34,691 bases of DNA from Bacteroidota bacterium. Its GTDB lineage: Bacteria > Bacteroidota > Ignavibacteria > UBA10030 > UBA8401. Each line of letters opens with the position of its first letter. Position 1 is the stretch's first letter. The notes beneath the pieces are model-generated. The model had not been told where the DNA came from, did not search any database, and worked only from the letters and a program-made list of their open reading frames with translations. The position numbers and the translations under genes are program-made. The stretch is from positions 185,190 to 219,880 of the forward strand of contig JAUXTU010000015.1 of the NCBI GenBank assembly GCA_030679145.1. The letters are read 5' to 3'. This document shows, piece by piece, positions 1,789 through 18,541 of the stretch.

Positions 1789-1809
1789 AGTTTTCTCCAA
1801 GTATCCGCC

Positions 1810-3106: not shown

Positions 3107-3152
3107 AAAAAGCCCCGAACGAAAGCAGCTGTTAGCTGTTTGCATTCGGGGC
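3107..3152 (-). terminator. leader hairpin of the left late operon (terminator-like)
   Basis: On the minus strand, GCCCCGAA and TTCGGGGC arms enclose a smaller CAGCT-aac-AGCTG hairpin, followed by CTTTTT. The structure ends about 15 nt before the ATG at 3093 and lies inside the 5' untranslated leader of its own operon. The same structure, with changed inner bases, precedes the right late operon at 15,310. It is likely an attenuator or a protein/RNA target rather than an end-of-operon terminator. Confidence 0.75.
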
Positions 3153-3188
3153 TTCTTGTTATCGAATTACCGCGATGAATTATTTATA

Positions 3189-3219
3189 CAAATTTAACTC
3201 ATCGCTTTTATAGAGTCAA
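3189..3219 (-). promoter_or_regulatory. left late promoter
   Basis: On the minus strand, a -35 TTGACT (3214-3219) is separated by 17 bp from TAAATTTG (3189-3196). This matches both the sigma-70 spacing and the Bacteroidota -7 motif TAnnTTTG. The -35 lies next to the stop codon of the small 50 aa gene. About 90 nt of leader follow, including a 32-nt block identical to the right late leader. Confidence 0.7.
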
Positions 3220-3222
3220 TAG

Positions 3223-3375
3223 CTATTTTTGAATTTCAAAAACTTTTGATGGATGGAACCATTCGTTGCCGTATCCTTCTAACCACACTCGGCAGCCGAT
3301 CTGCATTCGAACCGTTGTTTTTACTCCGAAGATCGATGTTACTTTTTGTCCGATTTCAAATTGTTTATGTTCCAT
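3223..3375 (-). CDS. 50 aa hypothetical protein
   Basis: This short ORF begins MEHKQFEIGQKVTSIFGVK and continues through LEGYGNEWFHPSKVFEIQK. It has an AATTATGG start context with an upstream GGAGG (ACGGAGGAATT). The short beta-rich pattern resembles small SH3-like phage proteins but belongs to no family I can name. It is the last gene downstream of the repressor on the same strand. Confidence 0.6.
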   Translation of the reverse strand: MEHKQFEIGQKVTSIFGVKTTVRMQIGCRVWLEGYGNEWFHPSKVFEIQK

Positions 3376-3452
3376 AATTCCTCCGTTATTCTATACACAG
3401 TGTCGGGAAGAATGATCGGCAAGTCAAGTCAATTTGGATTTGTAATTCTATA

Positions 3453-3782
3453 TTATCTCTTTTTTCGTTGATAGACTTTTTTCCCGCTTTTACTGTAATG
3501 ATAAACACCGCCGCGTGGTCCCTGATACAATGTTTTGCCAGTCGCCGTTGATCCAATGGATGTTTCTTTATGAGTAGACGAGCTCTCTGAAGATTTGGAG
3601 GTTACAGATGAATTATTTTTTACGGAGCTTCCGTGCTGCCAACAATATTGAGAGCCTGCCGCAGCTTGACGTTTACATTGGGCTCCTTTTTTAGTCGTGG
3701 CTGCGCATTGTTCAGCAAATACCTGTAACGATGTTACGACAAAGCAAATGAGAATAAACAGAACAGATCTGAACGAAACCAT
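3453..3782 (-). CDS. secreted two-motif protein: Cys/His N-terminal module plus GPRGG basic module
   Basis: This 109 aa protein starts at ATG 3782 behind AAGGAG. Residues 1-23 are a clear signal peptide (hydrophobic core, cleavage near VFA-EQC). Residues 25-51 hold C-A-x-T-x-K-K-G-x-Q-C-K-R...YC-x-QH, the pattern I associate with DUF5763. A Ser/Thr-rich linker follows (about 52-82), and the last 27 residues contain YQGPRGGVYHYSKSGKKVYQ, resembling the PBCV-type basic adaptor domain known from chlorella viruses. It sits in the operon downstream of the repressor, so it may be made in lysogens and exported. Function is unknown; both domain names are from memory. Confidence 0.7.
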   Translation of the reverse strand: MVSFRSVLFILICFVVTSLQVFAEQCAATTKKGAQCKRQAAAGSQYCWQHGSSVKNNSSVTSKSSESSSTHKETSIGSTATGKTLYQGPRGGVYHYSKSGKKVYQRKKR

Positions 3783-3801
3783 AACGTCTCCTTCAAATAA
3801 T

Positions 3802-4380
3802 TTAAAACGTATATGAGAGTGACAGCTGCTGACCGTCAGTTCGGATTTCTACTCGTTCAAGACTAAAAATCAGATTAATAATTCCCGCCGCAACGCACAC
3901 TCCGCCGATTAATTGTTTACGTGATTTTTGGCTCTCAACACTTGAATAGTCTCCGTTAGGAATGCTTTCTTTTAGTTTATCAATACTGCTTTGAATGTCC
4001 GATGCCTCAGTAAAATAATCTATTGCCAACGCAAAAGAAATAACGGTGACCGGAATCAATTTTAAATTCGGATATTCATACTTCGCTCCACGCTTGCGAA
4101 TGACCGGCTCGTTTGGTTTTTGTGTGGGTGTTAATGCGGTGAACTCTTCCCATCGTTCATAACCTGATTCCAGTAACGAATCGAATGGAATAGGAACAAT
4201 TTTTTCTACAGAACCAAATGCAAAACGGCGCGTTGAATATGGAACAAGTTGAATGCGAACGTATCGATCCAACGAATCAATTACTTTGATATTTCTAAAC
4301 GCAAACCCATTTCTAAGATACAGATCGTCGCACATTGCAACTGACGAAATAATGAGTAGCAATAAAATATATTTTTTCAT
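3802..4380 (-). CDS. exported protein with central membrane-like segment, lysogeny operon
   Basis: This 192 aa protein has an N-terminal signal peptide (MKKYILLLLIISSVAMC, residues 1-17, cysteine at 17). The first 60 residues after it are beta-rich, followed by a basic linker. There are two hydrophobic segments near residues 107-122 and 158-172. Its ATG overlaps the stop of the upstream 80 aa gene by four bases, so the two are translationally coupled. I do not recognise a family. Location downstream of the repressor suggests a conversion or superinfection-exclusion function at the cell envelope; this is inference. Confidence 0.65.
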   Translation of the reverse strand: MKKYILLLLIISSVAMCDDLYLRNGFAFRNIKVIDSLDRYVRIQLVPYSTRRFAFGSVEKIVPIPFDSLLESGYERWEEFTALTPTQKPNEPVIRKRGAKYEYPNLKLIPVTVISFALAIDYFTEASDIQSSIDKLKESIPNGDYSSVESQKSRKQLIGGVCVAAGIINLIFSLERVEIRTDGQQLSLSYTF

Positions 4381-4619
4381 TTGGCGGACAATGATATTAT
4401 TTTCTTTTCCCCTGCCTTCGGTTTCTCCGGAAGTTTTGCTTTCGCGGTTGCTAAAGAGATCTCTTTATAGAGCTCTACAACAGCCCAACCAAATGTTTTA
4501 ATGGATTGTTTATTGATCTCTTCCCACGTTTCACCTTTTTTCGGAACGTATTTGATCATTCCTTTGGAAACCATTGCGGTTGCTGCATCCGTTGCAAGTT
4601 CTAAAAATGTTTTGTTCAT
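4377..4619 (-). CDS. 80 aa hypothetical protein, coupled to repressor and exported gene
   Basis: A small, lysine-rich, largely helical protein with no signal peptide and the segment WEEINKQSIKTFGWAVVELYKE in the middle. It lies 11 bp after the repressor stop with an AAAGGAAT sequence before its ATG, and overlaps the following exported-protein gene by four bases. It is almost certainly co-transcribed with the repressor. Family not recognised. Confidence 0.65.
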   Translation of the reverse strand: MNKTFLELATDAATAMVSKGMIKYVPKKGETWEEINKQSIKTFGWAVVELYKEISLATAKAKLPEKPKAGEKKIISLSAK

Positions 4620-4630
4620 ACGATTCCTTT

Positions 4631-5392
4631 TTATTGGTTTATGCCGAGTTTGCGCATTTCTGATTTAGTGAGTTTTTGTTTGCCGACAAGTATGCCATAC
4701 GTTGCAATTTCATCTTTTTTTATTTTAACAGATGGATAGTTTCTAAATTTATTTGCTGAGATCAGTTCCAGATCTACGTTTGATTTGTGTTTTAAGATCT
4801 TCACCAATCGCTTATTATTTTTTAAATGCACCGCAATAATATCACCATTGCTTGGCTGCTTGAATAATTCAAAGATGCATACATCGTTCGGATATAGTTC
4901 AAAACTGTGTTCACCATCCGGTGCGTTGATGAGTGAATCGTTTTCGATCAACAGCGAAAAATAATTTCCTTTGCGATACGGAATTGAAAGTCCTTCAGGG
5001 AAATCTTCAAAATATTCTTTGCCGTCGGGCGACGCAGCAATTTTGCCGATGAGAGGAATATTTTTTATTTCGGAATAGAACGGTGATTCTTCATCAGATG
5101 GATGGTGTGCTGCATCTTCTTTTACTCTGTATGCCTGGTCTTTGCGGCGTTCCAATTCTTCAATAGAAATTCCGGTTAAAACAGAAGTAACATTCCCGCC
5201 AATCGCTTCAAAATTTTTTTTCATTTTCGGACCGAACGGACGCGCGCCGGACACGATTGCGCTGATAGTCGGTTCATTGGTATTCATTGCAATGGCGGCT
5301 TCTTTGCGTGTTGGGTAATGTGCGTCGAGCCAATCGCCGATTCTGCCGCCGACTTCCTTTAAAAATGCCTGATATTCTTGCTCTGTATTCAC
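4631..5392 (-). CDS. phage repressor, HTH plus S24/LexA-like peptidase domain
   Basis: This 253 aa protein has an N-terminal helix-turn-helix (about residues 15-60, TRKEAAIAMNTNEPTISAIV) and a C-terminal LexA/CI-type domain. IPLIGKIAAS (112-121) is the cleavage-loop region, Ser153 in ENDSLI is the candidate nucleophile, and Lys198 in KRLVKILK the general base. It is divergently oriented to the early operon, as Mu c is. The start is a GTG at 5392 lying within the left operator, and a -10-like TAATTTTG ends only about 5 bp upstream of it, so the message may be leaderless. The usual Ala-Gly scissile pair appears to be Ala120-Ser121, which could alter SOS-type self-cleavage. Confidence 0.88.
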   Translation of the reverse strand: MNTEQEYQAFLKEVGGRIGDWLDAHYPTRKEAAIAMNTNEPTISAIVSGARPFGPKMKKNFEAIGGNVTSVLTGISIEELERRKDQAYRVKEDAAHHPSDEESPFYSEIKNIPLIGKIAASPDGKEYFEDFPEGLSIPYRKGNYFSLLIENDSLINAPDGEHSFELYPNDVCIFELFKQPSNGDIIAVHLKNNKRLVKILKHKSNVDLELISANKFRNYPSVKIKKDEIATYGILVGKQKLTKSEMRKLGINQ

Positions 5393-5413
5393 TTATCAAA
5401 ATTAGATAACTTT
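5391..5413. promoter_or_regulatory. operator O1 (imperfect palindrome) over the repressor start
   Basis: CTTATCAAAATTAGATAAC is a degenerate copy of the perfect operator 20 bp to the right; both carry the half-site TTATCAAA. It covers the repressor GTG and its -10-like TAATTTTG (5397-5404, minus strand), so binding would provide autorepression. Confidence 0.65.
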
Positions 5414-5417
5414 TTCC

Positions 5418-5446
5418 TTGACAAACTTATCAAATTTTGATAAGTT
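5418..5446 (+). promoter_or_regulatory. early promoter with embedded operator O2
   Basis: TTGACA at 5418 and TAAGTT at 5441 are 17 bp apart. The palindrome AACTTATCAAA-T-TTTGATAAGTT (5424-5446, 11-bp perfect arms) fills the whole spacer and the -10. Repressor bound here would block transcription of the early operon that starts at 5487. Confidence 0.8.
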
Positions 5447-5486
5447 GTTGGAGTAGTAAATAGAACTATTTAAGAATAACAAAACA

Positions 5487-5702
5487 ATGCCGAAAACACA
5501 ACAAAAAGAAACTCGCACCATAGACCGACTTGAACTCTGGTTAGAGATGCGTAAAAATCGAATTACACAATCGCAGATCGCGAACAGAGTGAAACCGCGT
5601 GTTACTCAAAAAGCTGTTTCCAAAGCATTGATCGAAGGAAGCCGCTTTCTCTTACCAAAAATTGATAACGCTATTAAAGAAATTTTATCGGGGAAAAAAT
5701 GA
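5487..5702 (+). CDS. ner/cro-like small HTH regulator
   Basis: This 71 aa protein is the first gene right of the operators. It contains a helix-turn-helix in residues 27-55 (ITQSQIANRVKPRVTQKAVS) and a basic C-terminus. Size, position and HTH make it the functional analogue of Mu Ner, which turns down both repressor and early transcription. Sequence similarity to Ner itself is not obvious. Its stop overlaps the next ATG by three bases (ATGA). Confidence 0.75.
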   Translation: MPKTQQKETRTIDRLELWLEMRKNRITQSQIANRVKPRVTQKAVSKALIEGSRFLLPKIDNAIKEILSGKK

Positions 5703-6100
5703 ATCAACAGTCCGCAACAATGAAAGAACTTATGAATCATCAAACGCTGCTTGTGAATAAAGCCGGTGATCAGATCTGGCGATATGTTGATTCGTTCGAC
5801 GGCAAAGCACAATTCAAAGTATTTGCCGTTGAACCAAGAATACGAACACAGATTAAAAATTGGGAAGATGCGATACCGGGCGCAGATTATTTTATCGGCG
5901 GCAAATATTTTGCAACGGACTATATCGTTCCCAAAAAATATTTGAACCGAATTACAAAACTGTTGGAGTTCGATCTTCGCAAGAATACACCACGAGCGCA
6001 GACGGAATTGCAGAAAGAAGCGTTTCGCAAACTTCACGCCAGACGGATGGATAAGCAGCAAGTGGCTATGGAGTTCGCTCAGCCGATGAAGGTTGCTTAA
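5699..6100 (+). CDS. 133 aa early phage protein, unknown
   Basis: It is translationally coupled to the ner-like gene by an ATGA overlap. The protein is charged and soluble, with a central beta-rich segment (residues 20-85, with GADYFIGGKYFATDYIVPKKY) and a helical basic tail of Arg/Gln-rich sequence (about 90-130). No known motif is visible. A DNA-associated early function is plausible from location. Confidence 0.65.
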   Translation: MNQQSATMKELMNHQTLLVNKAGDQIWRYVDSFDGKAQFKVFAVEPRIRTQIKNWEDAIPGADYFIGGKYFATDYIVPKKYLNRITKLLEFDLRKNTPRAQTELQKEAFRKLHARRMDKQQVAMEFAQPMKVA

Positions 6101-6154
6101 AACGGATTTTTCGGGGTTGAGAACCGTACGGAAAACTCCCCACATGACAACATT

Positions 6155-6478
6155 ATGAAAAGCACGACTCTTTACGATAGAATGAAAAAGGCAGGTTTCG
6201 GATACCGCGCATGCGCGACGGCGATCAATGCAAAATTTGGTTCTGATGTCCATTACTATGATGTCTATAAGTTCGTTACGAAAAACTTTTCGAAGGTCGG
6301 AAAAGAACGAAGGAAAATAATTCGTGACTTCTTCATCTCCAAAAAGTGGATTGCTGAACCAAAGAAACGACCGGCACCGGTCTGTAGATTTTGTGGTCAT
6401 AAATATCCTACACGCAAGTTGGCAAGAAAAATTTTAGTCCGCAATCATAAACGCACTACAAAAAAATCTCATAGATAG
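6155..6478 (+). CDS. 107 aa early protein with C-terminal Cys/His zinc-like motif
   Basis: This is a very basic protein. Residues 1-60 are helical and look like a DNA-binding HTH (YDRMKKAGFGYRACATAINA and a following VYKFVTKNF helix). Residues 77-98 contain CRFCGHKYPT...RNH, which could bind zinc through C-x2-C and His. It lies between the ner-like and CII-like genes, so it is probably an early regulator or nucleic-acid-binding protein. Confidence 0.65.
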   Translation: MKSTTLYDRMKKAGFGYRACATAINAKFGSDVHYYDVYKFVTKNFSKVGKERRKIIRDFFISKKWIAEPKKRPAPVCRFCGHKYPTRKLARKILVRNHKRTTKKSHR

Positions 6479-6479
6479 A

Positions 6480-6803
6480 ATGATCACACTCGAAAAAATA
6501 TTATACACCATGATCAAAGGGTGGGAAAACGAACAGAGGCTTGTTCGTGACGATTATGCGTTTGATGCGTTTGAGTTTCTCTCTAAAAAATTATCACATA
6601 AAAATTCTTCCACGCTTCGCAAGATGTGCGGACCGAAATCATCGCGCTCCGGTGCGAAGCTTGGCGTTGAAGATGCTATGATCTTAATGACGGAAATGAA
6701 CGACTATCGGGTAATTGATTTTATGCGCGAAGATTTAAAATGTAGAAAACAAATTAGCAAACAATTGAAATTAAATTTTTCAAAGCCTCAAACAGAATTA
6801 TGA
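6480..6803 (+). CDS. CII/CP76-like phage regulatory protein
   Basis: This 107 aa protein begins one base after the previous stop and overlaps the transposase start by four bases. The centre (residues 30-78) has the layout of the phage CII/CP76 family: a helical N-terminus, then 'SSTLRKMCGP' as the recognition region, then KLGVEDAMILMTEMNDYRVIDFM, which resembles the L-x-x-x-D-x-x-x-LT...D family pattern. Members bind DNA and are often found next to transposase A in Mu-like phages. The match is from memory of the pattern, so the family call is moderate. Confidence 0.55.
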   Translation: MITLEKILYTMIKGWENEQRLVRDDYAFDAFEFLSKKLSHKNSSTLRKMCGPKSSRSGAKLGVEDAMILMTEMNDYRVIDFMREDLKCRKQISKQLKLNFSKPQTEL

Positions 6804-8647
6804 ACCAACAACATCCACACATAGAGATCCCTGCAGTGCCAATAGGTCGCATCACCAATGACGTGATCGCGAAAACCGATTTGATGCTGAAACTTATTGC
6901 TGCTGATACGAACATACGCAAAACGGAAGAGCAGACCGCAATACTGCTCGGCTGCACCTCCGGCATTTTGCGCCGCTATAAAAAAGAATTGCGCAGAATG
7001 TTTTCCATTCCCGACCGTGCGTCGATCAAACATCTGGCAGCGCACCCGCAAATTAAACACGCCATTGAATCTATTTTAATGCGGAAGGAACGAACCGATA
7101 AATTACAATTGCGCGGCGCAAAAGATATTGATGTTATTATGCCGACCGGAGAAGTTGTTTCGGTGGAGAATTTTTTGAAAGCATTATATCCGAATGAAAA
7201 TGTAAACGCTGTGAGCTGTTACCGCGCTTTGGTTGCGCGCTGCAGAAATAAAAAAGTTGTGAAGCAGGATGGATCGGAAGCAGTGCTTGCAGATCTACCG
7301 GCAGAAGTATCTGTTGTACGTTTCTTACGGCAATGGAAGAAAGAATTTATCGCCGTGCGCCGCGCGCGAGCCCGGAAGAACGATTGGGAAAAACAACAAC
7401 AGCAATTTGTCACCCGCGATGTTACGCAGTATGAACCTGGCGAGTTGTGGATTGGTGATCATACCGAACTCGATTTTATGGTGTTGAACGAACAGGGTAA
7501 ACCGGACAGACGTTGGATCACTGCCTTCATCGATATTCGAAGCGGACTCCTGGTCGGGTATCATTTAAGCTGGCAGCCAAACTCGCAGACCATTGCAATG
7601 GCATTCCGCAACGGAGTTCTTGGCATTCAATTGAAAGCATACACTGCGGACAATCAATATAAAGATGTTCATATCACAACCGTTCCGGATACGGTGATGC
7701 TCGATAACGGAAAAGATTATCGCAGCAAATTTACGCAGCGGCTTCTCGGCAGAATTGATTTTGAAGACAAGGCTCGGCTTTCAATTCAACGCATTACAAA
7801 ACTTCATTACACCACACCGTATCACGGACAATCGAAAGCGCAAATGGAACGCTGGTTCGGTTCATTCCAAATGATGATCAAGAATCTTCCCGGTTACAAA
7901 GGAAACGTGTACGGCAACAAACCGGACTCATTAAAAGAAGATCTGAAACAAAAACAAATTCTCTCGGTGGAACAATTTGATGTGATGATTGCGCTTGCTG
8001 TTAACGCAATTAATAACCGCGTAAAAAAATCGAACAACAACGAATCGCCGCTGCAAAGTTATTTAACACACCAAACGGTTCAGCGCGGTATCGATCTTCG
8101 TGTGCTCGACTTCTTAATGATGCGCTCCGAAAATAAAGTGATACAACGCTGCCAAGTGCGATTAAAGAATGCGGAATATTATTCCGAGCAGCTGATGGCG
8201 TTCAACGGCAAGCGTGCCGATGTGTATTACGATCCGAACGATCTCGGTCTTGTGAGCGTGTATGTTGAGGGCGAGTTCGCAGCAGTGGCGTGCAATAAAG
8301 AATTGATGGGTAAAGATGAACGCGGTTTCCAAACGATCCTTGCAGACCGAACGCGAAGCGAAAAACAGATGCGCGAACAGATCAAACATTTCCGGAGCGG
8401 TGTATCGACAACCGATGCGCGCATGATGCTTCTGCACGGCGAATTAATGAACACGTCGCCGGTGGATTCTGCGCTGCTTAATAAAGAGACCGGTTCAATG
8501 ACAATTTTAACCGGCTTTGAAGAGCGTGCAAAGGAAACTCAAACGGCATTGGATCAGCAAAAAGAATTTGCAGAGATCGAGCGCGAAAGCAAGAAAAAAT
8601 CTACAAAACGAAAACTCACAATGAATATGATCAACAACATTCGTTAA
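6800..8647 (+). CDS. MuA-type DDE transposase
   Basis: This 615 aa protein is close to the 663 aa of MuA. An N-terminal HTH-like part (about 30-75) precedes a linker and an rve-type catalytic core. Candidate catalytic residues are Asp220 in LWIGDHTELD, Asp302 in VMLDNGKDYR and Glu350 in QSKAQMERWFGSF, giving a D-D-E set. The C-terminal 150 residues correspond to the MuA Mu-type transposase C-terminal beta-barrel (YYSEQLMAFNGKRADVYYDP) and a basic tail. It would bind the phage ends and do strand transfer for both integration and replication. The MuB-like ATPase gene follows 16 bp downstream. Confidence 0.95.
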   Translation: MNQQHPHIEIPAVPIGRITNDVIAKTDLMLKLIAADTNIRKTEEQTAILLGCTSGILRRYKKELRRMFSIPDRASIKHLAAHPQIKHAIESILMRKERTDKLQLRGAKDIDVIMPTGEVVSVENFLKALYPNENVNAVSCYRALVARCRNKKVVKQDGSEAVLADLPAEVSVVRFLRQWKKEFIAVRRARARKNDWEKQQQQFVTRDVTQYEPGELWIGDHTELDFMVLNEQGKPDRRWITAFIDIRSGLLVGYHLSWQPNSQTIAMAFRNGVLGIQLKAYTADNQYKDVHITTVPDTVMLDNGKDYRSKFTQRLLGRIDFEDKARLSIQRITKLHYTTPYHGQSKAQMERWFGSFQMMIKNLPGYKGNVYGNKPDSLKEDLKQKQILSVEQFDVMIALAVNAINNRVKKSNNNESPLQSYLTHQTVQRGIDLRVLDFLMMRSENKVIQRCQVRLKNAEYYSEQLMAFNGKRADVYYDPNDLGLVSVYVEGEFAAVACNKELMGKDERGFQTILADRTRSEKQMREQIKHFRSGVSTTDARMMLLHGELMNTSPVDSALLNKETGSMTILTGFEERAKETQTALDQQKEFAEIERESKKKSTKRKLTMNMINNIR

Positions 8648-8663
8648 TCACAAAGGGGAAACC

Positions 8664-9596
8664 ATGCAAGCAGATACACTTCAACTTATAGAAAAATCTT
8701 CCTTCACTTCCGACTCTCCGGCTGAAGCGTTGAAATTTTTGAAAGCGGGAATTGAGAATGGAAAAATAAAAGTCCGCGAGATCGAAAATTTTACAACCTA
8801 TAAAGGTCCGACGATCTCGCAGGTTCTGAATAATGTGTACGGCGCAGATCCACAGCCGATCATCGATACGCTTGTGCGCTTCTATCAGAACTGGATGACG
8901 AAACAATATGTGGTGAAGACCGAAGCGGTTGAAGAAATTTACGCAACGCTGATGCTCTGCTGGAAACGAAAAGCAATCGGAATGATTCGCGGCGACTTCG
9001 GTAAAGGAAAAACAAAATCGGTTCACAGTTTCTGCAGCGAATATGAATTTGCTCGGTTCGTGCAGCTGAACTCTTCCACCAACACCGTTTCAATTCTTAA
9101 CCGCATTGCTGATGCTATCGGCATCAATTCATTTGCAGGATCGAAGGAAGATAAACTGCAGCAGATCATTCGGCAGCTGAAGCGCAAACCGTTGATGCTC
9201 ATTATAGATGAAGCTGACGAATTGAATCCGAGAACGCTTGCAATTCTGCGCGACGTGCATGGCGACGGCGAATATTGTTCTGTGGTTCTTATTGTAACAC
9301 ATCGGTTCGACAAACTCATCGCACGTCCGGAACTTGGTTACCTGCGAAGCCGCATTAATATAAAAAGAGAGATCCGCGAGACATCGTTTGTTGAAGCGAA
9401 AAAGATCATCGATTTTTGGAGTCACAAATTAAAAAAATCGGATATGGAAAAAGCGTACGCGTGGAGTATGAAGCAATATTCCTTACGCTCGCTGGTTGCA
9501 CTGATGAACCGCGCGTACGATATAGCACAAATGAACAATCAAAAATCAATTGACAGCGATTGTATTGACGAAGCATACAGTTGGATAGTGGACTGA
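8664..9596 (+). CDS. MuB-like target-capture ATPase
   Basis: A 310 aa AAA+ type protein with Walker A GDFGKGKT (residues 110-117) and Walker B LMLIIDEAD (177-185). In Mu, protein B is an ATP-dependent DNA-binding filament that selects target DNA, activates the transposase and provides target immunity. Position immediately after A with an AAGGGG Shine-Dalgarno (8653-8658) fits this exactly. Residues 1-90 form a helical N-terminal region; the C-terminal residues 240-310 are helical, as in the MuB C-terminal domain. Confidence 0.92.
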   Translation: MQADTLQLIEKSSFTSDSPAEALKFLKAGIENGKIKVREIENFTTYKGPTISQVLNNVYGADPQPIIDTLVRFYQNWMTKQYVVKTEAVEEIYATLMLCWKRKAIGMIRGDFGKGKTKSVHSFCSEYEFARFVQLNSSTNTVSILNRIADAIGINSFAGSKEDKLQQIIRQLKRKPLMLIIDEADELNPRTLAILRDVHGDGEYCSVVLIVTHRFDKLIARPELGYLRSRINIKREIRETSFVEAKKIIDFWSHKLKKSDMEKAYAWSMKQYSLRSLVALMNRAYDIAQMNNQKSIDSDCIDEAYSWIVD

Positions 9597-9600
9597 GACA

Positions 9601-9801: not shown

Positions 9802-9983
9802 AATATCCAACGCTTGAACAAGTTGCGGTTGCAGACCGATTGCAAACGTGCCGGTGGTATCGATTTCTTTCTTCACCAACAAACGGTGAAGAAGAAAATA
9901 TTCTCAATGCTGTCATCGTGCGATTCAATCAATTTGGCGGAATGACACCGGAAATTTCAAAACAGATTGGGTGGGGAAAATGA
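9798..9983 (+). CDS. 61 aa early protein, unknown
   Basis: A short protein coupled by ATGA overlaps to both neighbours, the 66 aa gene and the gp16-like gene. It contains CRWYRFLSSPTNGEEENIL and no recognised motif. The overlaps and in-operon location are the main support for its being real. Confidence 0.55.
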   Translation: MKYPTLEQVAVADRLQTCRWYRFLSSPTNGEEENILNAVIVRFNQFGGMTPEISKQIGWGK

Positions 9984-10510
9984 CACGCTCGGAGCTCAAC
10001 AAACAGATCGGCGTTCTTGTTCATGCAAAGCTGAAACTTGATGAAGATATTTATCGGCAGATCGTTTACAGCATCGATAACAACAGCGGCGGATTTGTTC
10101 GCAACTGCGACGATGAAACAGCGAATCTTGTTCTTATCCATCTTCAGCGGCTTGCGGATAAAAAATATTCAACGCACGAAGTGAACAAACAGAGCGATCA
10201 GGAAAAATTTGTTGCGCGTTTAATGGACTACCTGAAATGGAATTGGAGTAATACGTCGCAGTTTATTTTTAAGATCACCGGCAAACATCATACCAGCAAG
10301 TGCAGCACAACGGAACTTTCAAAAGTGATTCGCGGTATGGTTGCTATAATAGATAAAGATATTGAGTGCGGGAAGATTGTGCTGCACGGCGAGACGAAAA
10401 TGAAATATTATCGTTACACAAAAAATCACAGAACAAAATCAACTGAAGCAGATCCTTCGACTCTCCCGACAGAGAGCGTCGGGATCGCTCAGGATGACGC
10501 CACCATTTAG
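9980..10510 (+). CDS. Mu gp16-like protein (DUF1018)
   Basis: The protein is 176 aa from ATG 9980, with a four-base overlap to the previous gene; a start nine bases upstream is less likely. The N-terminus 'LVHAKLKLDEDIYRQIVYSI' matches the family signature (a short helix with L-D-x-Y-R), followed by the L-x-x-LQRL segment and a YLKWNW region. In Mu-like phages gp16 is an early gene of unknown biochemical role located between B and the middle genes. The last 18 residues (PSTLPTESVGIAQDDATI) come from a palindromic repeat of non-phage type, which makes the C-terminus look recently extended or replaced. Confidence 0.75.
   Translation: MTRSELNKQIGVLVHAKLKLDEDIYRQIVYSIDNNSGGFVRNCDDETANLVLIHLQRLADKKYSTHEVNKQSDQEKFVARLMDYLKWNWSNTSQFIFKITGKHHTSKCSTTELSKVIRGMVAIIDKDIECGKIVLHGETKMKYYRYTKNHRTKSTEADPSTLPTESVGIAQDDATI
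10451..10498. repeat. palindromic dispersed repeat inside the gp16-like gene
   Basis: ATCCT...AGGAT arms enclose a CCCGAC/GTCGGG hairpin; the GATCCTTCGACTC and AGGATGAC ends are shared with the copy at 15,844. It supplies the C-terminal codons of the gp16-like protein. Confidence 0.75.
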
Positions 10511-10523
10511 AAAGGAGCACTAC

Positions 10524-10898
10524 ATGCAAGGAATAATATTTGCAATCGGACTTATGATCATCGCAGCCGTTGTCATGGCTGTAACGCATCGTTTTCATAA
10601 CGGCGATGTTGAAATGTCTTCGAGCATTGAGGAAAATAAACGGATCAGTGATTTAACAGAGAAAGCAATGACGCGGTATCCGGACCTGCCAATGATGCGA
10701 GCTATGCAGCGGTACGTTTGGGATATGGAAGAGCGGATTGAAACGATGCGAGCCAACGCCGTTGGAACTGATGTGCTGTATGCAATTGAAAGCGATCTGA
10801 AGGAGTGCCAATTGCTGCGCGAAGAGATCTCGCGGCTGATCAAAATGGAAATAGATATTAATTCACATTTCAATGTATTACACGCTGCACAATCATAG
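10524..10898 (+). CDS. small membrane protein with coiled-coil-like tail
   Basis: The start at ATG 10524 is set by an AAAGGAG sequence eight bases upstream. The 124 aa protein has one transmembrane helix (residues 3-20, GIIFAIGLMIIAAVVMAV) followed by about 100 residues of charged, helical sequence (WDMEERIETMRANAVG...LKECQLLREEISRL). The arrangement is that of a small inner-membrane protein with a cytoplasmic or periplasmic coiled coil. Function unknown; it may relate to host cell control. Confidence 0.65.
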   Translation: MQGIIFAIGLMIIAAVVMAVTHRFHNGDVEMSSSIEENKRISDLTEKAMTRYPDLPMMRAMQRYVWDMEERIETMRANAVGTDVLYAIESDLKECQLLREEISRLIKMEIDINSHFNVLHAAQS

Positions 10899-10909
10899 GA
10901 GATACAGCA

Positions 10910-11227
10910 ATGGCTTCAGCACTAAAACAATATGCAGACTATTTAAAAAAGGCTGCGGTTTACGAAGCGGGAATGAAGGCTTTGCGCAAAGAAGCGAAGA
11001 AGGAATTGAACGCTATCGAGGGAAAAATTACAACCATTGACGGTGTAAAATTTCACATGACACAGAAGTTGAAAGAAACGATCTATCCGGAGAGCGTTCA
11101 AAAAATGTTGGATGATCTGAAGACGAAGATCGACAATCAAAAATTAAATGCTGAGGAGTCCGGGCTTGTTGAAAAGAAATATTCCAAAACATTCGATGCA
11201 GAAATTCTTGAACCGAAAGAGAAATAA
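10910..11227 (+). CDS. 105 aa early helical protein, unknown
   Basis: The start is set by an AGGAGATACAGCA upstream sequence. The protein is almost entirely charged and helical (Lys/Glu rich) with a KFHMTQKLKETIYPESVQKM segment. It resembles small phage proteins that bind DNA or a nuclease, but no family is named. It is the last gene before the tRNA-like element. Confidence 0.65.
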   Translation: MASALKQYADYLKKAAVYEAGMKALRKEAKKELNAIEGKITTIDGVKFHMTQKLKETIYPESVQKMLDDLKTKIDNQKLNAEESGLVEKKYSKTFDAEILEPKEK

Positions 11228-11251
11228 TTTCGCTTGCCTCCATCAAGCGGC

Positions 11252-11315
11252 AGGGATGGTGTGGTGCTGCCGGAGTCATAAACCGACAGATTGGGTTCGA
11301 CTCCCGACATCCCTC
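11252..11315 (+). tRNA. tRNA-Met-like element lacking a D arm
   Basis: A 7-bp acceptor stem AGGGATG/CATCCCT (11252-11258 with 11308-11314) is perfect. The T arm is TTGGG-TTCGACT-CCCGA with a textbook loop. A 7-nt anticodon loop GTCATAA gives anticodon CAU with U33. Only 11 nt lie where a D arm (normally about 19 nt) should be, the anticodon stem is weak (A31-A39 and C27-A43 mismatches), and no CCA is encoded. Degraded phage tRNA or mimic are both possible; aminoacylation is doubtful. Confidence 0.4.
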
Positions 11316-11352
11316 TAAAAGCAATGAACAATTAGCAGGGGAACAATTATCA

Positions 11353-11562
11353 ATGCTCGAAATAATTAAGTGTAAAAGGTGCGGAGAGAAATTTGAGAAG
11401 CCAAAATCAAAAAGAAGAATTTGTGTACGGTGTTATACGGCGCATAGAAATGAATTGAATTCGCAATGGTCAAGAAAAAACGGAGTGAAACCTCGGCGTG
11501 AACCATCGAGCTTTACAATGTGGAATAGAATGTTGAATGGTTATTTAAAAGTGAAATGGTGA
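11353..11562 (+). CDS. small zinc-ribbon protein
   Basis: A 69 aa protein with CKRCGEKFEKP (residues 7-17) and CVRCY (24-28), a CxxC...CxxC zinc ribbon, followed by a basic tail. Small zinc ribbons of this kind are common in phage early operons. The start is preceded by a copy of the AACAATTATCA repeat rather than a strong Shine-Dalgarno. Confidence 0.6.
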   Translation: MLEIIKCKRCGEKFEKPKSKRRICVRCYTAHRNELNSQWSRKNGVKPRREPSSFTMWNRMLNGYLKVKW

Positions 11563-11595
11563 ATACAATTAATAATTGAGAATGGATAATTGATA

Positions 11596-11961
11596 ATGAA
11601 GAGCGAAACTGAACACTATCAAAAAGTTTGCACCGATGCCGGTGTGCAATTTATTGAAGCGGACGGACAATTTGTTTTCTTCCAGGATGTGATCACGAAG
11701 GAAAAATTATCGGTTGAGAAAACAAAATTCAACAATCCCCGGGTGCAGGCTATTGTTACAACGGCGCGACGGAAATATCCGAAGGACATTGAAATGCTTT
11801 CCGACTTTACCGATGCGATCAGATTCCTGACAAATAAATATTATATGGTGCCGCCGCGAACCATTGGCGATGCTGCTCTGGCTGCAACGCTTGTGGTTCA
11901 ACAATTTATTAACGAACAGAAAATAATCTCAGGGGAATCCAATGAAAAAATTGCCGCCTAA
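11596..11961 (+). CDS. 121 aa early protein, unknown
   Basis: The probable start is ATG 11596 (MKSETEHYQ); an ATT/ATG two codons earlier exists, and a short AATTGATAAT repeat overlaps this region. The protein is soluble, with VVQQFINEQKII as its C-terminal helix. It overlaps the next gene by 20 bases. No family recognised. Confidence 0.6.
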   Translation: MKSETEHYQKVCTDAGVQFIEADGQFVFFQDVITKEKLSVEKTKFNNPRVQAIVTTARRKYPKDIEMLSDFTDAIRFLTNKYYMVPPRTIGDAALAATLVVQQFINEQKIISGESNEKIAA

Positions 11962-12571
11962 AAAACCGTATCCAATTGAAAAATATTTGCAGCGGATTAA
12001 AGATTTTCATGCAGAGTTCGGACGCGCCCCGCATTCGGGTGAATGCAAAGGGACAAGCACAACATACAATCGATTGGTGAAACATTATGGTTCGTGGCAG
12101 AAAGCTGTTGAAGCTGCAATCGGTGTAACTCCGAAGTATAGAATGATTCCGGATTCAGAAGTGAAGCAGCTGCTGGTAACGATGCATAAAGAAAAGAACC
12201 GGCTGCCGCACATTGATGATTTTTCAAAAGGACAAAACAAACTGATCAACACGCGGTTCGGCAGCGTAACGTGCGCCAACGAGCTGATCTTTAATGACAG
12301 CGTTCGTCTGCGAACGTTGGATGCGCTGCAGGAGCTGACTCCTGCCGGTGTTGAGAATGCAACAACGCAAGAGATCTGTTCGCTGATGAATAAAAAAGGA
12401 TTTGCGATCGCAATTTATTCAGTAAGCAGACTTCTTGATGCGTCGCGCAAAGAAAATTTTGTTGTGAGCGGTCGGTACGATAAAGCAATGTGGTGGTCGT
12501 TGACGAATGCAGGAATTCAATTTATTAATTCATTCAATAAGGGGAAGAAAGATGGAAGCAAAATTAAATAA
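11942..12571 (+). CDS. homing-endonuclease-associated-repeat protein with winged-helix-like C-terminus
   Basis: This 209 aa protein has the pattern of the homing-endonuclease-associated repeat in residues 10-62: YLQRIKDFHAEFGRAP...TYNRLVKHYGSWQKAVEAA, with a partial second copy (75-115). These repeats bind DNA and are often joined to HNH nucleases, but no HNH or GIY-YIG motif is visible here, so it may act as a DNA-binding protein. The C-terminal residues 125-200 resemble a winged helix-turn-helix (TTQEICSLMNKKGFAIAIYS). It overlaps the previous gene by 20 bases. Confidence 0.65.
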   Translation: MKKLPPKKPYPIEKYLQRIKDFHAEFGRAPHSGECKGTSTTYNRLVKHYGSWQKAVEAAIGVTPKYRMIPDSEVKQLLVTMHKEKNRLPHIDDFSKGQNKLINTRFGSVTCANELIFNDSVRLRTLDALQELTPAGVENATTQEICSLMNKKGFAIAIYSVSRLLDASRKENFVVSGRYDKAMWWSLTNAGIQFINSFNKGKKDGSKIK

Positions 12572-12800
12572 CACATGCCCGGGCAGAATTCATAGTTACG
12601 TTCCGATTGTTGAAGGAACACAAACGGTCGGTGTGGTTTGTATGCTCTGCGGAAAAACGGTGCGGGAAGATATGACACAGAGCGAAATTGTTGTAACGGA
12701 TTCCGTAATAATTTTTCCACCGTATTTTTCTGAACAAGTGAAGCATCAATCAACAAGAGATTTTAAAATAATTTATCATCGCAAAGATCCAAGATTCTAA
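12552..12800 (+). CDS. small CxxC protein
   Basis: 82 aa from ATG 12552, chosen over an upstream start for its AAGGGGAAGAAAG Shine-Dalgarno. A CMLCGK motif and a separate Cys near the N-terminus could bind zinc. It overlaps the 3' end of the previous gene and abuts the next start exactly. Function unknown. Confidence 0.55.
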   Translation: MEAKLNNTCPGRIHSYVPIVEGTQTVGVVCMLCGKTVREDMTQSEIVVTDSVIIFPPYFSEQVKHQSTRDFKIIYHRKDPRF

Positions 12801-13211
12801 ATGCCGACGTATAAAAAAAATATTTATCTGAATGAATTGATCGATAAGAACGGACCGACGGCAGGGCTGCCATTGTTTGATCATACATCGGCAGAGCATT
12901 TGAAGGTGAGAATCAATAACGCGCCGAAATCGATTGCGGTTGCAACGGACACGCGAAAGCTTGCGCACCTTGCAATACAAATGAAGATCGGCGAAGAGCA
13001 GCAGAAAGTATTGGATGAGTTTTGTTCGGTCCCGGACGGGACGAATAAAGAGATCGCTGCTCTATTACAGATGGATGCAAGTACGGTTTCAGCGCGCAAT
13101 AATGAGCTTCGTAAACTTGGTTTAATAACGTTTTCACAGAAGAGACAATGCGCTATCACCGGACACATAGTGACTTCTTGGAAGGTTTGTCATGTCGATA
13201 ACGTCGCGTAA
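12801..13211 (+). CDS. winged-helix (MarR-like) DNA-binding protein
   Basis: This 136 aa protein has a winged HTH in residues 70-130: VLDEFCSVPDGTNKEIAALL, then QMDASTVSARNNELRKLGLIT, the recognition helix and wing. The N-terminal 60 residues are unlike typical regulators. It may regulate early-to-late switching. It starts exactly where the previous gene ends, so it is coupled. Confidence 0.7.
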   Translation: MPTYKKNIYLNELIDKNGPTAGLPLFDHTSAEHLKVRINNAPKSIAVATDTRKLAHLAIQMKIGEEQQKVLDEFCSVPDGTNKEIAALLQMDASTVSARNNELRKLGLITFSQKRQCAITGHIVTSWKVCHVDNVA

Positions 13212-13395
13212 AGAAATTGAGATCTGCCCGAATTGCAGCGGCGAAGGTGAAGTTGATTTTGACAAGCCGGTGTGGGGTGAAGATTCTGAACGAGTAAAAG
13301 TTCCGTGCGCACAATGCGGCATGACCGGACGTAGAATAAAATTAACAACGATTCAATATTTACAATTTGAAAGGGGAACAAATGATAACGCTTGA
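13192..13395 (+). CDS. small DnaJ-like zinc-motif protein
   Basis: A 67 aa protein with CPNCSGEGEV and CAQCGMTG, the CxxCxGxG type Zn-binding pattern seen in DnaJ cysteine-rich domains and many small phage proteins. It overlaps the previous gene by 20 bases. Confidence 0.6.
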   Translation: MSITSRKEIEICPNCSGEGEVDFDKPVWGEDSERVKVPCAQCGMTGRRIKLTTIQYLQFERGTNDNA

Positions 13396-13594
13396 TGTCA
13401 CTCAAACTAAACCGCCGCTTGGTGTAATACCGAGAAGAATTATTGATGGTGAACGAATGTCAACATTGGGTGCAGGAATGATTAGATATTATCTATGTGC
13501 AAAACCAATTCCATTAGAATGGATTACCGAATATAACGAGATCGCTAATCGCTTATCTAAAGTTCCTGATTTTGTAGCCGGAGGAATTCGGTGA
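13382..13594 (+). CDS. 70 aa hypothetical early protein
   Basis: The start at ATG 13382 is preceded by AAAGGGGAACAA. The protein has no recognised motif; the middle (MSTLGAGMIRYYLCAKPIPL) is moderately hydrophobic. It overlaps the previous gene by 14 bases and the next by four. Confidence 0.55.
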   Translation: MITLDVTQTKPPLGVIPRRIIDGERMSTLGAGMIRYYLCAKPIPLEWITEYNEIANRLSKVPDFVAGGIR

Positions 13595-13818
13595 TGAAAA
13601 AATTTCAGGCAACAATTATTGCGGAACTTCAGATCGGAGACCGATTCTATTTTTTAAATGACAAATATAAAAAATCGCAAGAGGTGTTGAAGTTCTTTCC
13701 GGGTAAAACGGATCGGGCAGAAATTCAGCAGATCCTGGGGCATAAACAAGTTGTGAATGCAAGCCGCGACGTGGCGTTTCTAAACACCCGGGCAGAAAGG
13801 GCTGCGGAGAAAAAATGA
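13594..13818 (+). CDS. 74 aa hypothetical early protein
   Basis: Two ATGs in tandem (13591 and 13594); the second is equally possible. Small beta-rich N-terminus and charged C-terminus, no known family. It overlaps the following ORF by four bases (ATGA). Confidence 0.55.
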   Translation: MKKFQATIIAELQIGDRFYFLNDKYKKSQEVLKFFPGKTDRAEIQQILGHKQVVNASRDVAFLNTRAERAAEKK

Positions 13819-13967
13819 AAGAGATCTATGTGGTGTTCTTTTCGAGCACACAATTTAAAGTGATTGAATCAACGCATCCGTCGTTCTTAATGGATCGGCT
13901 GCTGAATCTCGGTCAGCTGCAGCTGGCATCAAAACAGGGTTACACAATTATTATTAAAACTTCATGA
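13815..13967 (+). CDS. 50 aa hypothetical early protein
   Basis: A 50 aa ORF, MKEIYVVFFSSTQFKV to the C-terminal TIIIKTS. It is linked by ATGA overlaps to both neighbours, which strongly suggests it is real. No family recognised. Confidence 0.6.
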   Translation: MKEIYVVFFSSTQFKVIESTHPSFLMDRLLNLGQLQLASKQGYTIIIKTS

Positions 13968-14557
13968 ATAAAAATTCGCAACTAACGTTAATTGACCCCC
14001 TCTGTGTCTCCCCCTTGCCAGGGGGAGAGGTAACTCCGAAACCAAAATCGTGGCAGCAGACGTTTGCGGGAATATTTTGGTTTAAATATAAAGAGACAAC
14101 CGGCGAAGAGTGCAAGCTTGGCTTTGGCGCGCTGAAAAAAATGCTGAATCAACACGCGGTGAAATTTTGGGTGGATGAAGAGACCGGGCAACCGGAAGTT
14201 CCTTCGGTGGAACAATGGACCGAAGAGATAACCACATTCTTTGAAGATGAATTTGCAGCTGCGAAACGCGGGTTCCATTTTTCTTACTTACTTAGTCAGT
14301 ACGGGTCGTTCAAAAAATTCAAACCGGCAAAACGTGAATTAAGCAATCCAGTTATTACATACGAATGTAAAAACTGTCACCGCATTATGGGAAATCCGCG
14401 TTCAAAGTGGGAGCGTTATAAAAATCAGACTGCTATTTGTACACAATGCAAAGCTCGGTTTAGCGTGAACGATGTGCTCAATCAGATTCCGACAATTCAA
14501 AATATTATTCCAATGATAACCGGAGAAAAGAATCATGACACCAACACCAATAAGTGA
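13964..14557 (+). CDS. 197 aa protein with C-terminal zinc ribbon and repeat-encoded N-terminus
   Basis: It is coupled to the previous ORF by an ATGA overlap. Residues 9-23 (IDPLCVSPLPGGEVT) are encoded by a palindromic repeat. The middle contains KETTGEECKLGFGALKKML and an acidic/aromatic stretch. The C-terminus has CKNCHRIM (about 130) and CTQCKAR (about 157), a CxxC...CxxC zinc ribbon. Possibly a replication or DNA-binding protein; I do not recognise a family. Confidence 0.6.
   Translation: MNKNSQLTLIDPLCVSPLPGGEVTPKPKSWQQTFAGIFWFKYKETTGEECKLGFGALKKMLNQHAVKFWVDEETGQPEVPSVEQWTEEITTFFEDEFAAAKRGFHFSYLLSQYGSFKKFKPAKRELSNPVITYECKNCHRIMGNPRSKWERYKNQTAICTQCKARFSVNDVLNQIPTIQNIIPMITGEKNHDTNTNK
13997..14033 (+). 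repeat. palindromic repeat inside the zinc-ribbon gene
   Basis: CTCCCCC (14008-14014) and GGGGGAG (14021-14027) form a 7-bp hairpin around TTGCCA. I recall this CTCCCCCTTGCCAGGGGGAG type from dispersed bacterial repeats that encode an SPLPGGE peptide. Confidence 0.7.
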
Positions 14558-14873
14558 TTTTGACGATGTGATTTTATTTGAACTTCAGAAGAAAGTGCAG
14601 ATCGGGAAACTGCCGTCGCTCAGTTTTGGCGAGATGTGGAAAGCATCGGCAGATGCTGCGCCGAATTTTTACGCGCCGATTGATCCGACGGTACGGCGCT
14701 CTGCATTTATTGCGCGCATGATGCAAGCGGTTGAGATTTTGCACAAGAGCGAATTGATAACAGTCTCCACGAATTACGGTGATAAGATAGACAGCATAAT
14801 GCTTACTGAAGCAGGAATTAATCACGTTTCAAAGATCGTTTATACGAACCAACAACGATACGCAAAAGTGTAA
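14535..14873 (+). CDS. 112 aa early/middle protein, winged-helix-like
   Basis: It overlaps the previous gene by 23 bases. The protein is soluble with an acidic N-terminus (MTPTPISDFDDVILFEL) and a later segment 'AVEILHKSELITVSTNYGDKIDSIMLTEAGI' that resembles the recognition helix and wing of a winged-helix domain. It is the last gene before the structured RNA, so it is a candidate late activator. Confidence 0.6.
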   Translation: MTPTPISDFDDVILFELQKKVQIGKLPSLSFGEMWKASADAAPNFYAPIDPTVRRSAFIARMMQAVEILHKSELITVSTNYGDKIDSIMLTEAGINHVSKIVYTNQQRYAKV

Positions 14874-14925
14874 TTGAAAATGGTAAACAAATTTAATAGA
14901 TTAAAGAGTTCAAATCAGTTCACAA

Positions 14926-15032
14926 TCAGCACACGGCGTTGCTCGGCACAATTGGAGTCGGGCAACTCTCTCTATTGGGTGACCGGTAGGGGTGTTTCGC
15001 CGTGTGCTGAACATGAACAAGAGTTGCTCGAC
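14926..15032 (+). ncRNA. structured RNA with three-way junction and competing stem
   Basis: P1: the 13-bp perfect stem 14926-14938 (TCAGCACACGGCG) with 14998-15010. P2: 14939-14945 with 14959-14965. P3: CTATTGG and CCGGTAG (14972-14978, 14983-14989) closed by a GTGA tetraloop of GNRA type. A 12-nt segment at 15021-15032 can also pair with 14957-14968 (11 Watson-Crick pairs plus one G-U), forming a pseudoknot with P1 or competing with P2. No ORF explains the region. I cannot name an RNA family. A second 58 aa gene starts 18 nt downstream. Confidence 0.55.
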
Positions 15033-15049
15033 ATTATTTTAGGGTGCCA

Positions 15050-15226
15050 ATGAGCGACTCCAAGAAAAATGACTCTGGTATTAAAGCTCTCGTTGATCTT
15101 CTGTTCGGAATAATGCAACGGCAGCGTAAATGCAGAATTGAAATTGATTTTGATGGAAGCCGATATTTTTGGAAAGTATCTATTAGTAACATGACGGCGG
15201 ATGAGTTGCCTGAAGTGAAAGAATGA
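15050..15226 (+). CDS. 58 aa hypothetical protein
   Basis: Starts at ATG 15050 (a GTG two codons earlier is in frame). A short protein with a hydrophobic N-terminal helix (IKALVDLLFGIMQRQ) and a beta-rich end. It lies between the structured RNA and the right late promoter. Function unknown. Confidence 0.5.
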   Translation: MSDSKKNDSGIKALVDLLFGIMQRQRKCRIEIDFDGSRYFWKVSISNMTADELPEVKE

Positions 15227-15243
15227 AGTCTCGGAAATAGGTA

Positions 15244-15272
15244 TTGACGGTCGGTTGTAATTTTGGTATTTT
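15244..15272 (+). promoter_or_regulatory. right late promoter
   Basis: TTGACG (15244-15249) and TATTTTAC (-10 from 15267) are 17 bp apart, the same geometry as the left late promoter. About 100 nt of leader follow to the ATG at 15382, including the 32-nt block (15287-15318) identical to the left leader. Confidence 0.7.
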
Positions 15273-15309
15273 ACACTAAATAATTTTCGCGGTAATTCGA
15301 TAACAAGAA

Positions 15310-15367
15310 GCCCCGAATTTAAAAGCTAACAGCTAATAGCTGGCAGCTTTCAGATTCGGGGTTTTTT
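15310..15367 (+). terminator. leader hairpin of the right late operon (terminator-like)
   Basis: GCCCCGAAT and ATTCGGGGT arms enclose AAAGCT-aa-CAGCT-aat-AGCTG-gc-AGCTTT, followed by six T residues, then the ATG 14 nt later. It matches the left leader hairpin at 3107-3152 in outer stem and design but differs in inner sequence. Confidence 0.75.
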
Positions 15368-15381
15368 CATTTTAAAAACTT

Positions 15382-18535: not shown

Positions 18536-18541
18536 GTTTTA

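Follow-up and report, generated by a model that had tools for sequence, protein, structure and literature searches.

Twin leader RNA elements suggest how Mu-like Ignavibacteria viruses lacking Mu's late activators turn on both virion blocks together

Introduction

How does a Mu-like phage that lacks Mu's late activators switch on virion genes lying on opposite strands? Transposable phages devoid of Mor/C have been described without a late regulator in the part of PMC8705779 drawn on here. That part concerns Leptospira prophages, which resemble the phage studied here in their TnpA, MuB-like, GemA-like, Portal_Mu and MuF proteins, in their divergent arms and in missing Mor/C. Since divergent arms were already known there, divergence is not new in itself. 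The same part reports no leader switch and leaves late control unexplained, whereas the phage clade considered here carries a leader. We analyzed this leader in a prophage that reaches beyond a 34,691-bp stretch of an Ignavibacteria genome (referred to as the window in the rest of the text), for which an initial annotation had proposed that two divergent late operons begin with the same promoter-leader order.

Results

Leader copies in the window and in the prophage

The block, the hairpins, the U-tracts and the TTGAC-17-−10 boxes were all found in the annotated order at both divergent sites (Table 1). As claimed, the 32-nt block TCGCGGTAATTCGATAACAAGAAGCCCCGAAT is identical at 3175-3144 (minus strand) and 15287-15318 (plus strand), and its 30-nt core matched twice in the window compared to 0 matches in 100 shuffles. 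In both window copies, the leader hairpin is much more stable than its shuffles (z = −6.4 and −7.2) and leads into a U-tract; translation starts lie 13 and 14 nt past these tracts, at 3093 and 15382, in agreement with a terminator-like hairpin close to the first ATG. The promoter-like sites are not significant singly (36 found versus 25 expected), and equivalent sites precede many homologous copies in a similar layout.

Table 1. Leader elements, late-operon genes and candidate regulators in the window.
Feature	Position	Strand	Remark
Virion structural protein (phrog_3758)	1228..1800	−	Leftward operon, further downstream
First gene after copy V1, late protein of no assigned function	2581..3093	−	Paralogue of L005:1652-2131
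Copy V1, U-tract	3111-3107	−	
Copy V1, terminator 3′ arm	3120-3112	−	
Copy V1, segment 2, GCCCCGAAT	3144..3152	−	Common to antiterminator stem and terminator 5′ arm
Copy V1, upper stem TTC/GAA	3166-3164 / 3155-3153	−	
Copy V1, loop GATAACAA	3163-3156	−	
Copy V1, bulge AA	3168-3167	−	
Copy V1, antiterminator 5′ strand TCGCGGT	3175-3169	−	Whole copy part 3153..3175
Promoter-like TTGACT-17-TAAATT (TAAATTTG, Bacteroidota −7-like)	3191..3219 (3219-3191)	−	Leftward late operon
Winged-HTH protein	12801..13211	+	Kept in 11/11 phages; alternative candidate regulator
60-aa protein	15044..15226	+	Precedes copy T directly in almost every relative; a late-regulator candidate on position alone
Promoter-like TTGACG-17-TATTTT	15244..15272	+	Rightward late operon
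Copy T, antiterminator 5′ strand TCGCGGT	15287-15293	+	Whole copy part 15287..15309
Copy T, bulge AA	15294-15295	+	
Copy T, upper stem TTC/GAA	15296-15298 / 15307-15309	+	
Copy T, loop GATAACAA	15299-15306	+	
Copy T, segment 2, GCCCCGAAT	15310..15318	+	Common to antiterminator stem and terminator 5′ arm
Copy T, terminator 3′ arm	15354-15362	+	Then U-tract to 15367
First gene after copy T, terminase-small-subunit (TerS)-like DNA-binding protein	15382..15825	+	
Terminase large subunit family	15892..17592	+	Used to find relatives
Mu-type portal protein (Portal_Mu)	20960..22318	+	Rightward operon

A third copy of the block with one mismatch (C18:183203-183233, minus strand) lies about 2 kb beyond the window in the same prophage and precedes an endolysin gene, the first of the head operon. 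Scanning of the 3.83-Mb genome returned these three matches, every one inside the prophage; lacking further copies, the block is not a host repeat, and the host-wide dispersed repeat that the initial annotation had considered was ruled out by this result together with the order and class scans described below. An exact-pattern scan of IMG/VR for the block gave no match.

Both operons had been thought to begin with a virion or packaging gene. This holds for the plus operon and its TerS-like product, but the first product of the minus operon has no assigned function (42% identity to a late tail-region protein, its paralogue), and phrog_3758 is encoded further down. The inner hairpins of the two window copies had also been read as a sign of selection on structure. 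They are palindromic AGCTNNY heptamers, present elsewhere in the genome too; the two window copies alone are thus weak evidence of structure selection and we dropped their inner-loop complementarity. Selection on structure is supported instead by covariation among relatives (see below).

Distribution among related phages

The supposed tie of the block to late genes held among relatives: 17 phages of the clade (this one, IMG/VR contigs and Ignavibacteria-class MAGs) carry the cassette ahead of the terminase operon (TerS), and in 12 phages a copy on the opposite strand stands before a late or lysis gene. Both copies occur on one contig in ten phages, always divergent and 12-17 kb apart, the second heading a lysis/virion operon. 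In G000 and G395, one arm has an additional copy farther downstream. The leader before TerS is absent from the phages of G147/G408 and L076.

Apart from one remnant (G194) and a plain terminator (G016), an order-wide scan matched phage carriers only; across the genomes scanned, the element is restricted to this phage clade and its late operons, and host genes lack it. Weak class-level model matches at L057, L092, L115 and L116 were rejected as plain terminators in which the 5′ hairpin is absent, and a match at L114 follows an apparent tRNA end. L113 gave another weak class-level match. Distant terminase relatives (DMS3, Bacteroides p00, BalMu-1 and others) were not matched by the model at E values up to 1, the leader DNA matched none of 50,697 phage records, and Rfam gave no match to the leader at gathering score. 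We found no account of the element in the literature. A portal protein scan of genome contigs yielded no confirmed match, and the TerS alignment was too diverse for scanning.

Two mutually exclusive structures in the leader

Thirty copies have in common an RNA hairpin composed of a lower stem (segment 1 paired with segment 2, or 1:2), a 2-nt bulge (U-N-R), an upper stem of 3 bp and an AU-rich loop of 5-8 nt depending on the copy. Both stems exhibit compensatory changes, including between copies within single phages (six in the upper stem and three in the lower stem). In the lower stem, position 6-25 is G-C in 26/30 copies and A-U in 4/30, and position 4-27 is GC in 17, CG in 3 and AU in 1. Using counts that only partly correct for relatedness, covariation was 0.210 for the lower stem (at most 0.108 in slid controls, 0/500 shuffles) and 0.636 for the upper stem (control maximum 0.238). 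The upper stem is 94% paired, all three of its pairs show compensatory changes, and its 5′ strand lies outside the terminator. U7 and G24 are invariant and A9 is found in 28/30 copies, while only about half of the copies form the outermost pairs of 1:2 (columns 1-3).

Every copy also contains an intrinsic terminator, a strong GC-rich hairpin with a U-tract, before the first gene. Pairing of segment 2 with segment 3, the terminator 3′ arm, was counted in 98% of cells, a figure inflated by the choice of 3′ arms with a pairing-maximising script, which does not affect the 1:2 or upper-stem figures. Since the terminator's 5′ arm also serves as one strand of the lower stem, the antiterminator and the terminator are mutually exclusive. 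Transcripts cut before the terminator 3′ arm folded into the 1:2 hairpin in 32/33 cases, the exception being a decayed remnant, and swapping segment 1 between phages weakened this hairpin from 5.06 to 3.82 pairs.

The cassette had been described as a promoter followed by a terminator. Both are present, but the 32-nt block forms a putative antiterminator hairpin that borrows the terminator's own 5′ arm, so that the leader would act as a switch between two states. The promoter can be separated from this hairpin: in 15/30 copies the best −10-like box lies at least 38 nt upstream of it, and an additional hairpin or repeat frequently intervenes; the distance ranges from about 20 to more than 100 nt among copies. 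Upstream hairpins occur in 12/30 copies and are unrelated in sequence. Copy T contains no ATG, GTG or TTG from its −10-like box to the start of TerS (15273-15381), and this lack of a start codon led us to reject leader-peptide attenuation at that copy.

Absence of known regulators

No Mor/C family activator (PF08765) is encoded in the 12 genomes or records searched, which argues against a Mu-C-type activator. CAT_RBD (PF03123), the RNA-binding domain of BglG/LicT, was likewise not found in 12 genomes or records covering phages and hosts (control genomes positive, 4/14), and the conserved early proteins scanned gave no ANTAR domain match. The 60-aa protein has no Pfam or PHROG match, and its AlphaFold model is poor (pLDDT 59.5). 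Other early genes conserved among the phages lie at 14535-14873, 11942-12571 and 9971-10510.

Discussion

We consider it likely that a terminator/antiterminator attenuator gates both late operons and is opened by a putative factor. The suggestion that the leader hairpin could be a shared attenuator on both late arms thus gains from its conservation, exclusive pairings and covariation. RNA polymerase leaving an ordinary promoter would first make the ~30-nt 1:2 hairpin. As segment 3 emerges, segment 2 would re-pair with it into a much stronger intrinsic terminator before the first gene, and this re-pairing would make termination the default. We infer three things: transcription stops at the terminator, the hairpin averts this stop, and the choice between the two lies with a trans-acting factor, probably encoded by the phage. 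This factor may recognize the bulge (U-N-R opposite the invariant G) and/or the loop and hold the 1:2 hairpin so that polymerase passes into the genes; the variable loop length makes the proposed recognition site uncertain. With the same element at both divergent arms, one factor would simultaneously activate the head, lysis and tail genes of one strand and the terminase and portal genes of the opposite strand.

An attenuator of riboswitch type, answering to a small molecule or a host protein so that the phage reads the state of its host and not its own regulator, is unlikely. In its favor, the architecture is common to all two-state attenuators and the phage proteins considered are no more than candidates for the factor, but in the genomes scanned the confinement to one phage clade and its late operons, away from host genes, does not fit an element reading the host.

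It is improbable that the leaders are plain intrinsic terminators insulating late operons from upstream read-through, with a 5′ block that is merely promoter-proximal or untranslated. A strong hairpin and U-tract in every copy would fit, as would the rightward leader of G000, which follows a long early operon running in the same direction. However, a terminator placed after a promoter-like site would stop its own transcript, the 5′ block has a covarying stem of its own and pairs with the terminator arm, and ordinary terminators scoring with the model elsewhere lack this block.

Like putL and putR of HK022, two copies of one RNA element (PMC9378689), the phage leader lies close to the promoters of two divergent operons, and several of its copies have extra upstream hairpins. 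A put-like cis-acting RNA could modify RNA polymerase to resist this and later terminators without any dedicated factor, a reading to which we assign little probability. The factor-independent put RNAs serve early operons and consist of ~70 nt with two stem-loops sharing no arm with a terminator, whereas the ~30-nt hairpin described here overlaps the terminator and heads late operons. Moreover, a processive first copy would render the further downstream copies of G000 and G395 unnecessary.

Binding of the block as double-stranded DNA near the transcription start by a phage activator or repressor is very improbable, for although the sequence is short, conserved and close to the promoter wherever no insert intervenes, and all compared phages encode the winged-HTH protein, DNA binding leaves unexplained the paired stem substitutions that accumulate while sequence is lost, the promoter distance is variable, and the local hairpin or palindrome GTTAT/ATAAC, the first idea for the block, had no covariation support.

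The preferred reading, a two-state attenuator opened by a factor, has parallels in known systems. The RAT RNAs bound by BglG/LicT/SacY (PMC3369936) are likewise ~30-nt hairpins upstream of a terminator with which they share one arm, forming mutually exclusive structures with termination as the default. RAT has two asymmetric internal loops and controls sugar operons, whereas the phage leader has one asymmetric 2-nt bulge plus a loop and precedes virion genes without a CAT_RBD protein. Targets of the ANTAR proteins NasR, AmiR and EutV (PMC3369936) also have an antiterminator hairpin, stabilized by the protein, that overlaps the terminator stem; these comprise two hairpins with conserved A1/G4 loops, in contrast to the one conserved hairpin with 5-8-nt loops found here. 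At lambda PR′-tR′ (PMC6606751), a late phage promoter is similarly followed by an immediate terminator to be overcome, and the candidate gene directly upstream of the leader occupies the position of Q. Q binds promoter DNA and acts processively, whereas the leader hairpin is an RNA structure that overlaps the terminator and would gate two divergent operons.

It is possible, though we advance this tentatively, that in this Mor/C-less transposable phage clade Mu-type activation gave way to a dedicated antiterminator, a phage RNA-binding protein from a family not yet described and perhaps the 60-aa protein. It would open the identical switches of the two divergent late arms and thereby set the balance of capsid and packaging proteins from opposite strands. 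Leader copies that drifted apart by paired changes within a single genome provide good evidence of RNA structure without a transcriptome. The element may serve as bait for a new RNA-binding antiterminator, and it offers, for one clade, a concrete, testable answer to how Mor/C-less transposable phages activate late genes.

A repeated leader heads the late operons of a Mu-like prophage

The initial annotation had claimed that one 32-nt block stands identically on both strands, and the sequence bore this out: TCGCGGTAATTCGATAACAAGAAGCCCCGAAT occurs with the same letters before the leftward and the rightward late operon, where the chance expectation for such a repeat is 0. Behind each of these copies come a hairpin of very high stability (z -6.4 and -7.2), a U-tract and, 13-14 nt on, a start codon. 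Both copies also have a -35/-10-like pair upstream; since single sites that score as well are frequent in this AT-rich region (36 found versus 25.2 expected), support for the pairs comes from the relatives. A host-wide dispersed repeat, the alternative reading of the block, is contradicted by its distribution in the 3.83-Mb draft source genome, in which all three occurrences lie inside one prophage on contig C18, whose positions 185190-219880 make up the window. The third copy, with one mismatch, opens the left arm's endolysin/head part, and the -10 box of its promoter-like site, TTGAC-17-TAAGTTAC, is 104 nt upstream. A probable host dispersed repeat lies between this copy and that site.

The prophage encodes a Mu-type transposase C-terminal domain, a MuB-like AAA protein, Portal_Mu and MuF, together with a weak, below-cut-off match to GemA. 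Among the right-arm genes are TerS, TerL, portal and MuF; the portal and capsid genes lie on opposite strands and have to be expressed jointly. Translations of two neighbouring late right-arm genes carry DPPY and TSPPYW motifs and look like DNA methyltransferases. Inverted repeats ACTTATCAAAATTAGATAA / TTATCAAATTTTGATAAGT adjoin an S24-type repressor gene and are probably the lysogeny operator. The named relatives are Ignavibacteriales, Ignavibacteriae, Kryptoniota and Chlorobi-labelled MAGs.

Coordinates of the features discussed (window positions unless a locus, L, is named)
Feature	Position	Strand
32-nt block, leftward operon	3175-3144	-
32-nt block, rightward operon	15287-15318	+
32-nt block, third copy	~2 kb left of window base 1	
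S24-type repressor gene	4631-5392	
Inverted repeats, probable operator	5391-5445	
Second structured RNA	14918-15034 (core 14954-15032)	+
Methyltransferase-like genes	18533-20355	
Triple-repeat leader, G022 contig 19.8-20.0 kb	L017:3789-4029	
Wider second-RNA members in one locus	L068:3935-4009 and 5684-5753	
Divergent operons, Bacteroides phage p00	L131:4057-4270	

Leaders before late genes in related phages

Relatives were gathered by terminase searches and by scans with a covariance model (R1), whose E-values are rough. The check on relatives that the annotation had called for, run with R1, found leaders before late genes in further phages. A leader precedes TerS in 17 phages (G000 from the source genome, G014, G022, G023, G046, G379 and G395-G405; G401 is nearly identical to G275), those of G397 and G402 having been missed by R1 and read from sequence; the virus contigs in the set are fragments. 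Twelve phages carry one before a left-arm late gene (G000, G014, G022, G023, G046, G379, G395, G399, G401, G404, G405 and G408), with two such copies each in G000 and G395. Ten have both leaders on one contig, divergent every time and 12-17 kb apart. The left-arm leader is followed by an endolysin gene in several phages; in G022, G399 and G405 (L084, L086, L088) a gene assigned by eye to the HNH/AP2-type endonucleases is inserted right behind it, as if riding on the late switch in three different phages.

Seven of 98 genomes of the host order gave matches: the five carriers, G194, a decayed remnant with its endolysin homologue broken by a stop, and G016, a plain terminator. The leader model had no match in the distant relative Bacteroides phage p00, whose protease/capsid and terminase/portal operons diverge back to back over ~210 bp. 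The left-arm leader of G022 repeats segments 1-2 three times in tandem before a single terminator 3' arm. An extra hairpin between promoter and antiterminator, unrelated in sequence (e.g. CCACGGACTTCAGTCCGTGG in G402), occurs in 12 of 30 copies; these are perhaps inserted host palindromic repeats.

Two competing hairpins are supported by covariation

Segment 2 can pair with segment 1 (antiterminator) or with segment 3 (terminator). We aligned the 5' half and terminator 3' arm of 30 copies (A8), with rows cut by script, three of them trimmed by one leading base for register, and two indel-bearing copies (G397, G022 left arm) omitted. Because the 3' arm was picked for best pairing, the 2:3 count is favoured (97.8% paired, compensatory in eight of nine pairs), while the 1:2 and upper-stem counts are not; relatedness is controlled in part only in all these figures. 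In the lower 1:2 stem the signal comes from columns 4-7 with 24-27 (6-25: GC 26, AU 4; 4-27: GC 17, CG 3, AU 1; and, in addition to these columns, 3-28: GC 12, UA 3), and its covariation of 0.210 compares with at most 0.108 in slid versions and was matched in 0/500 shuffles. The upper stem (10-12/21-23) is 94% paired with every pair compensatory (0.636 versus at most 0.238), and is independent evidence for the hairpin because its 5' strand has no part in the terminator. Over the entire antiterminator hairpin, eight of ten pairs show compensatory changes. A local alternative pairing, GTTAT/ATAAC, had no comparable covariation support.

Copies inside one phage, which have genome and any trans factor in common, also differ by compensatory changes: the upper stem shows six, the lower stem three and the terminator 13. 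In G405, for instance, one copy has GGAU/GUCCC and the second GAGGU/GCCUC. No copy departs from U7 or G24, and at position 9 A stands in 28/30 and G in 2/30, so that the bulge has U-N-R on its 5' side. Recognition probably occurs at the conserved bulge and loop.

Folding order and a proposed switch

For 32 of 33 copies, RNA ending before the terminator 3' arm adopted the 1:2 hairpin (on average about -8 kcal/mol); once segment 1 was swapped between phages, the 1:2 pairs dropped from 5.06 to 3.82. When folding was limited to 110 nt, leaders reached -32 to -58 kcal/mol (-21 for the triple-repeat copy, clipped by that limit), and the terminator formed in the complete leader folds shown. From these folding energies we infer that 1:2 would form first and 2:3 would then win unless 1:2 is held. 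Most simply, the leader can be read as an attenuator with termination by default, in which a factor stabilising 1:2 would allow read-through.

A second structured RNA and candidate factors

An H-type pseudoknot (P1 CAGCACACGGCG/CGCCGTGTGCTG, P2 GGGCAACTCT/AGAGTTGCTC, a GNRA-capped P3) precedes the rightward leader by about 250 nt, with compensatory changes in 11 of 18 modelled pairs and no match in Rfam. It is present in 11 clade phages and in seven class genomes outside the set with a TerL match of the clade. By eye, an outer stem P0 seems to covary in the wider members (L121-L129 and L068), where the 5' strand often occurs a second time immediately 3' of the RNA, close to the following start codon, as though one partner were contested by two strands, riboswitch-like or otherwise.

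Neither Mor/C (PF08765) nor CAT_RBD (PF03123) was found in the phages and hosts tested. Genes for the transposase, MuB-like, GemA-like, HNH-repeat and winged-HTH proteins and a ~107-aa protein, the last encoded upstream of the transposase, are kept between the leaders in all 11 phages compared. A 60-aa gene immediately preceding the rightward leader was found by similarity in ten; its position resembles that of lambda Q and Mu C, which is a lead only.

Comparison with known systems

The leader would work much like RAT- or ANTAR-type antitermination (PMC3369936), but lacks defining features of both. It differs from put (PMC9378689) in size, terminator overlap and operons controlled, and from lambda Q (PMC6606751) in acting through an RNA hairpin. 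Mor/C-less transposable prophages of Leptospira with divergent arms are described in PMC8705779, whose consulted passages leave late control unexplained. Rfam has no family matching the leader. We judge the leader to be a new RNA family which, with the usual regulator missing here, would exert a variant form of a known type of control.
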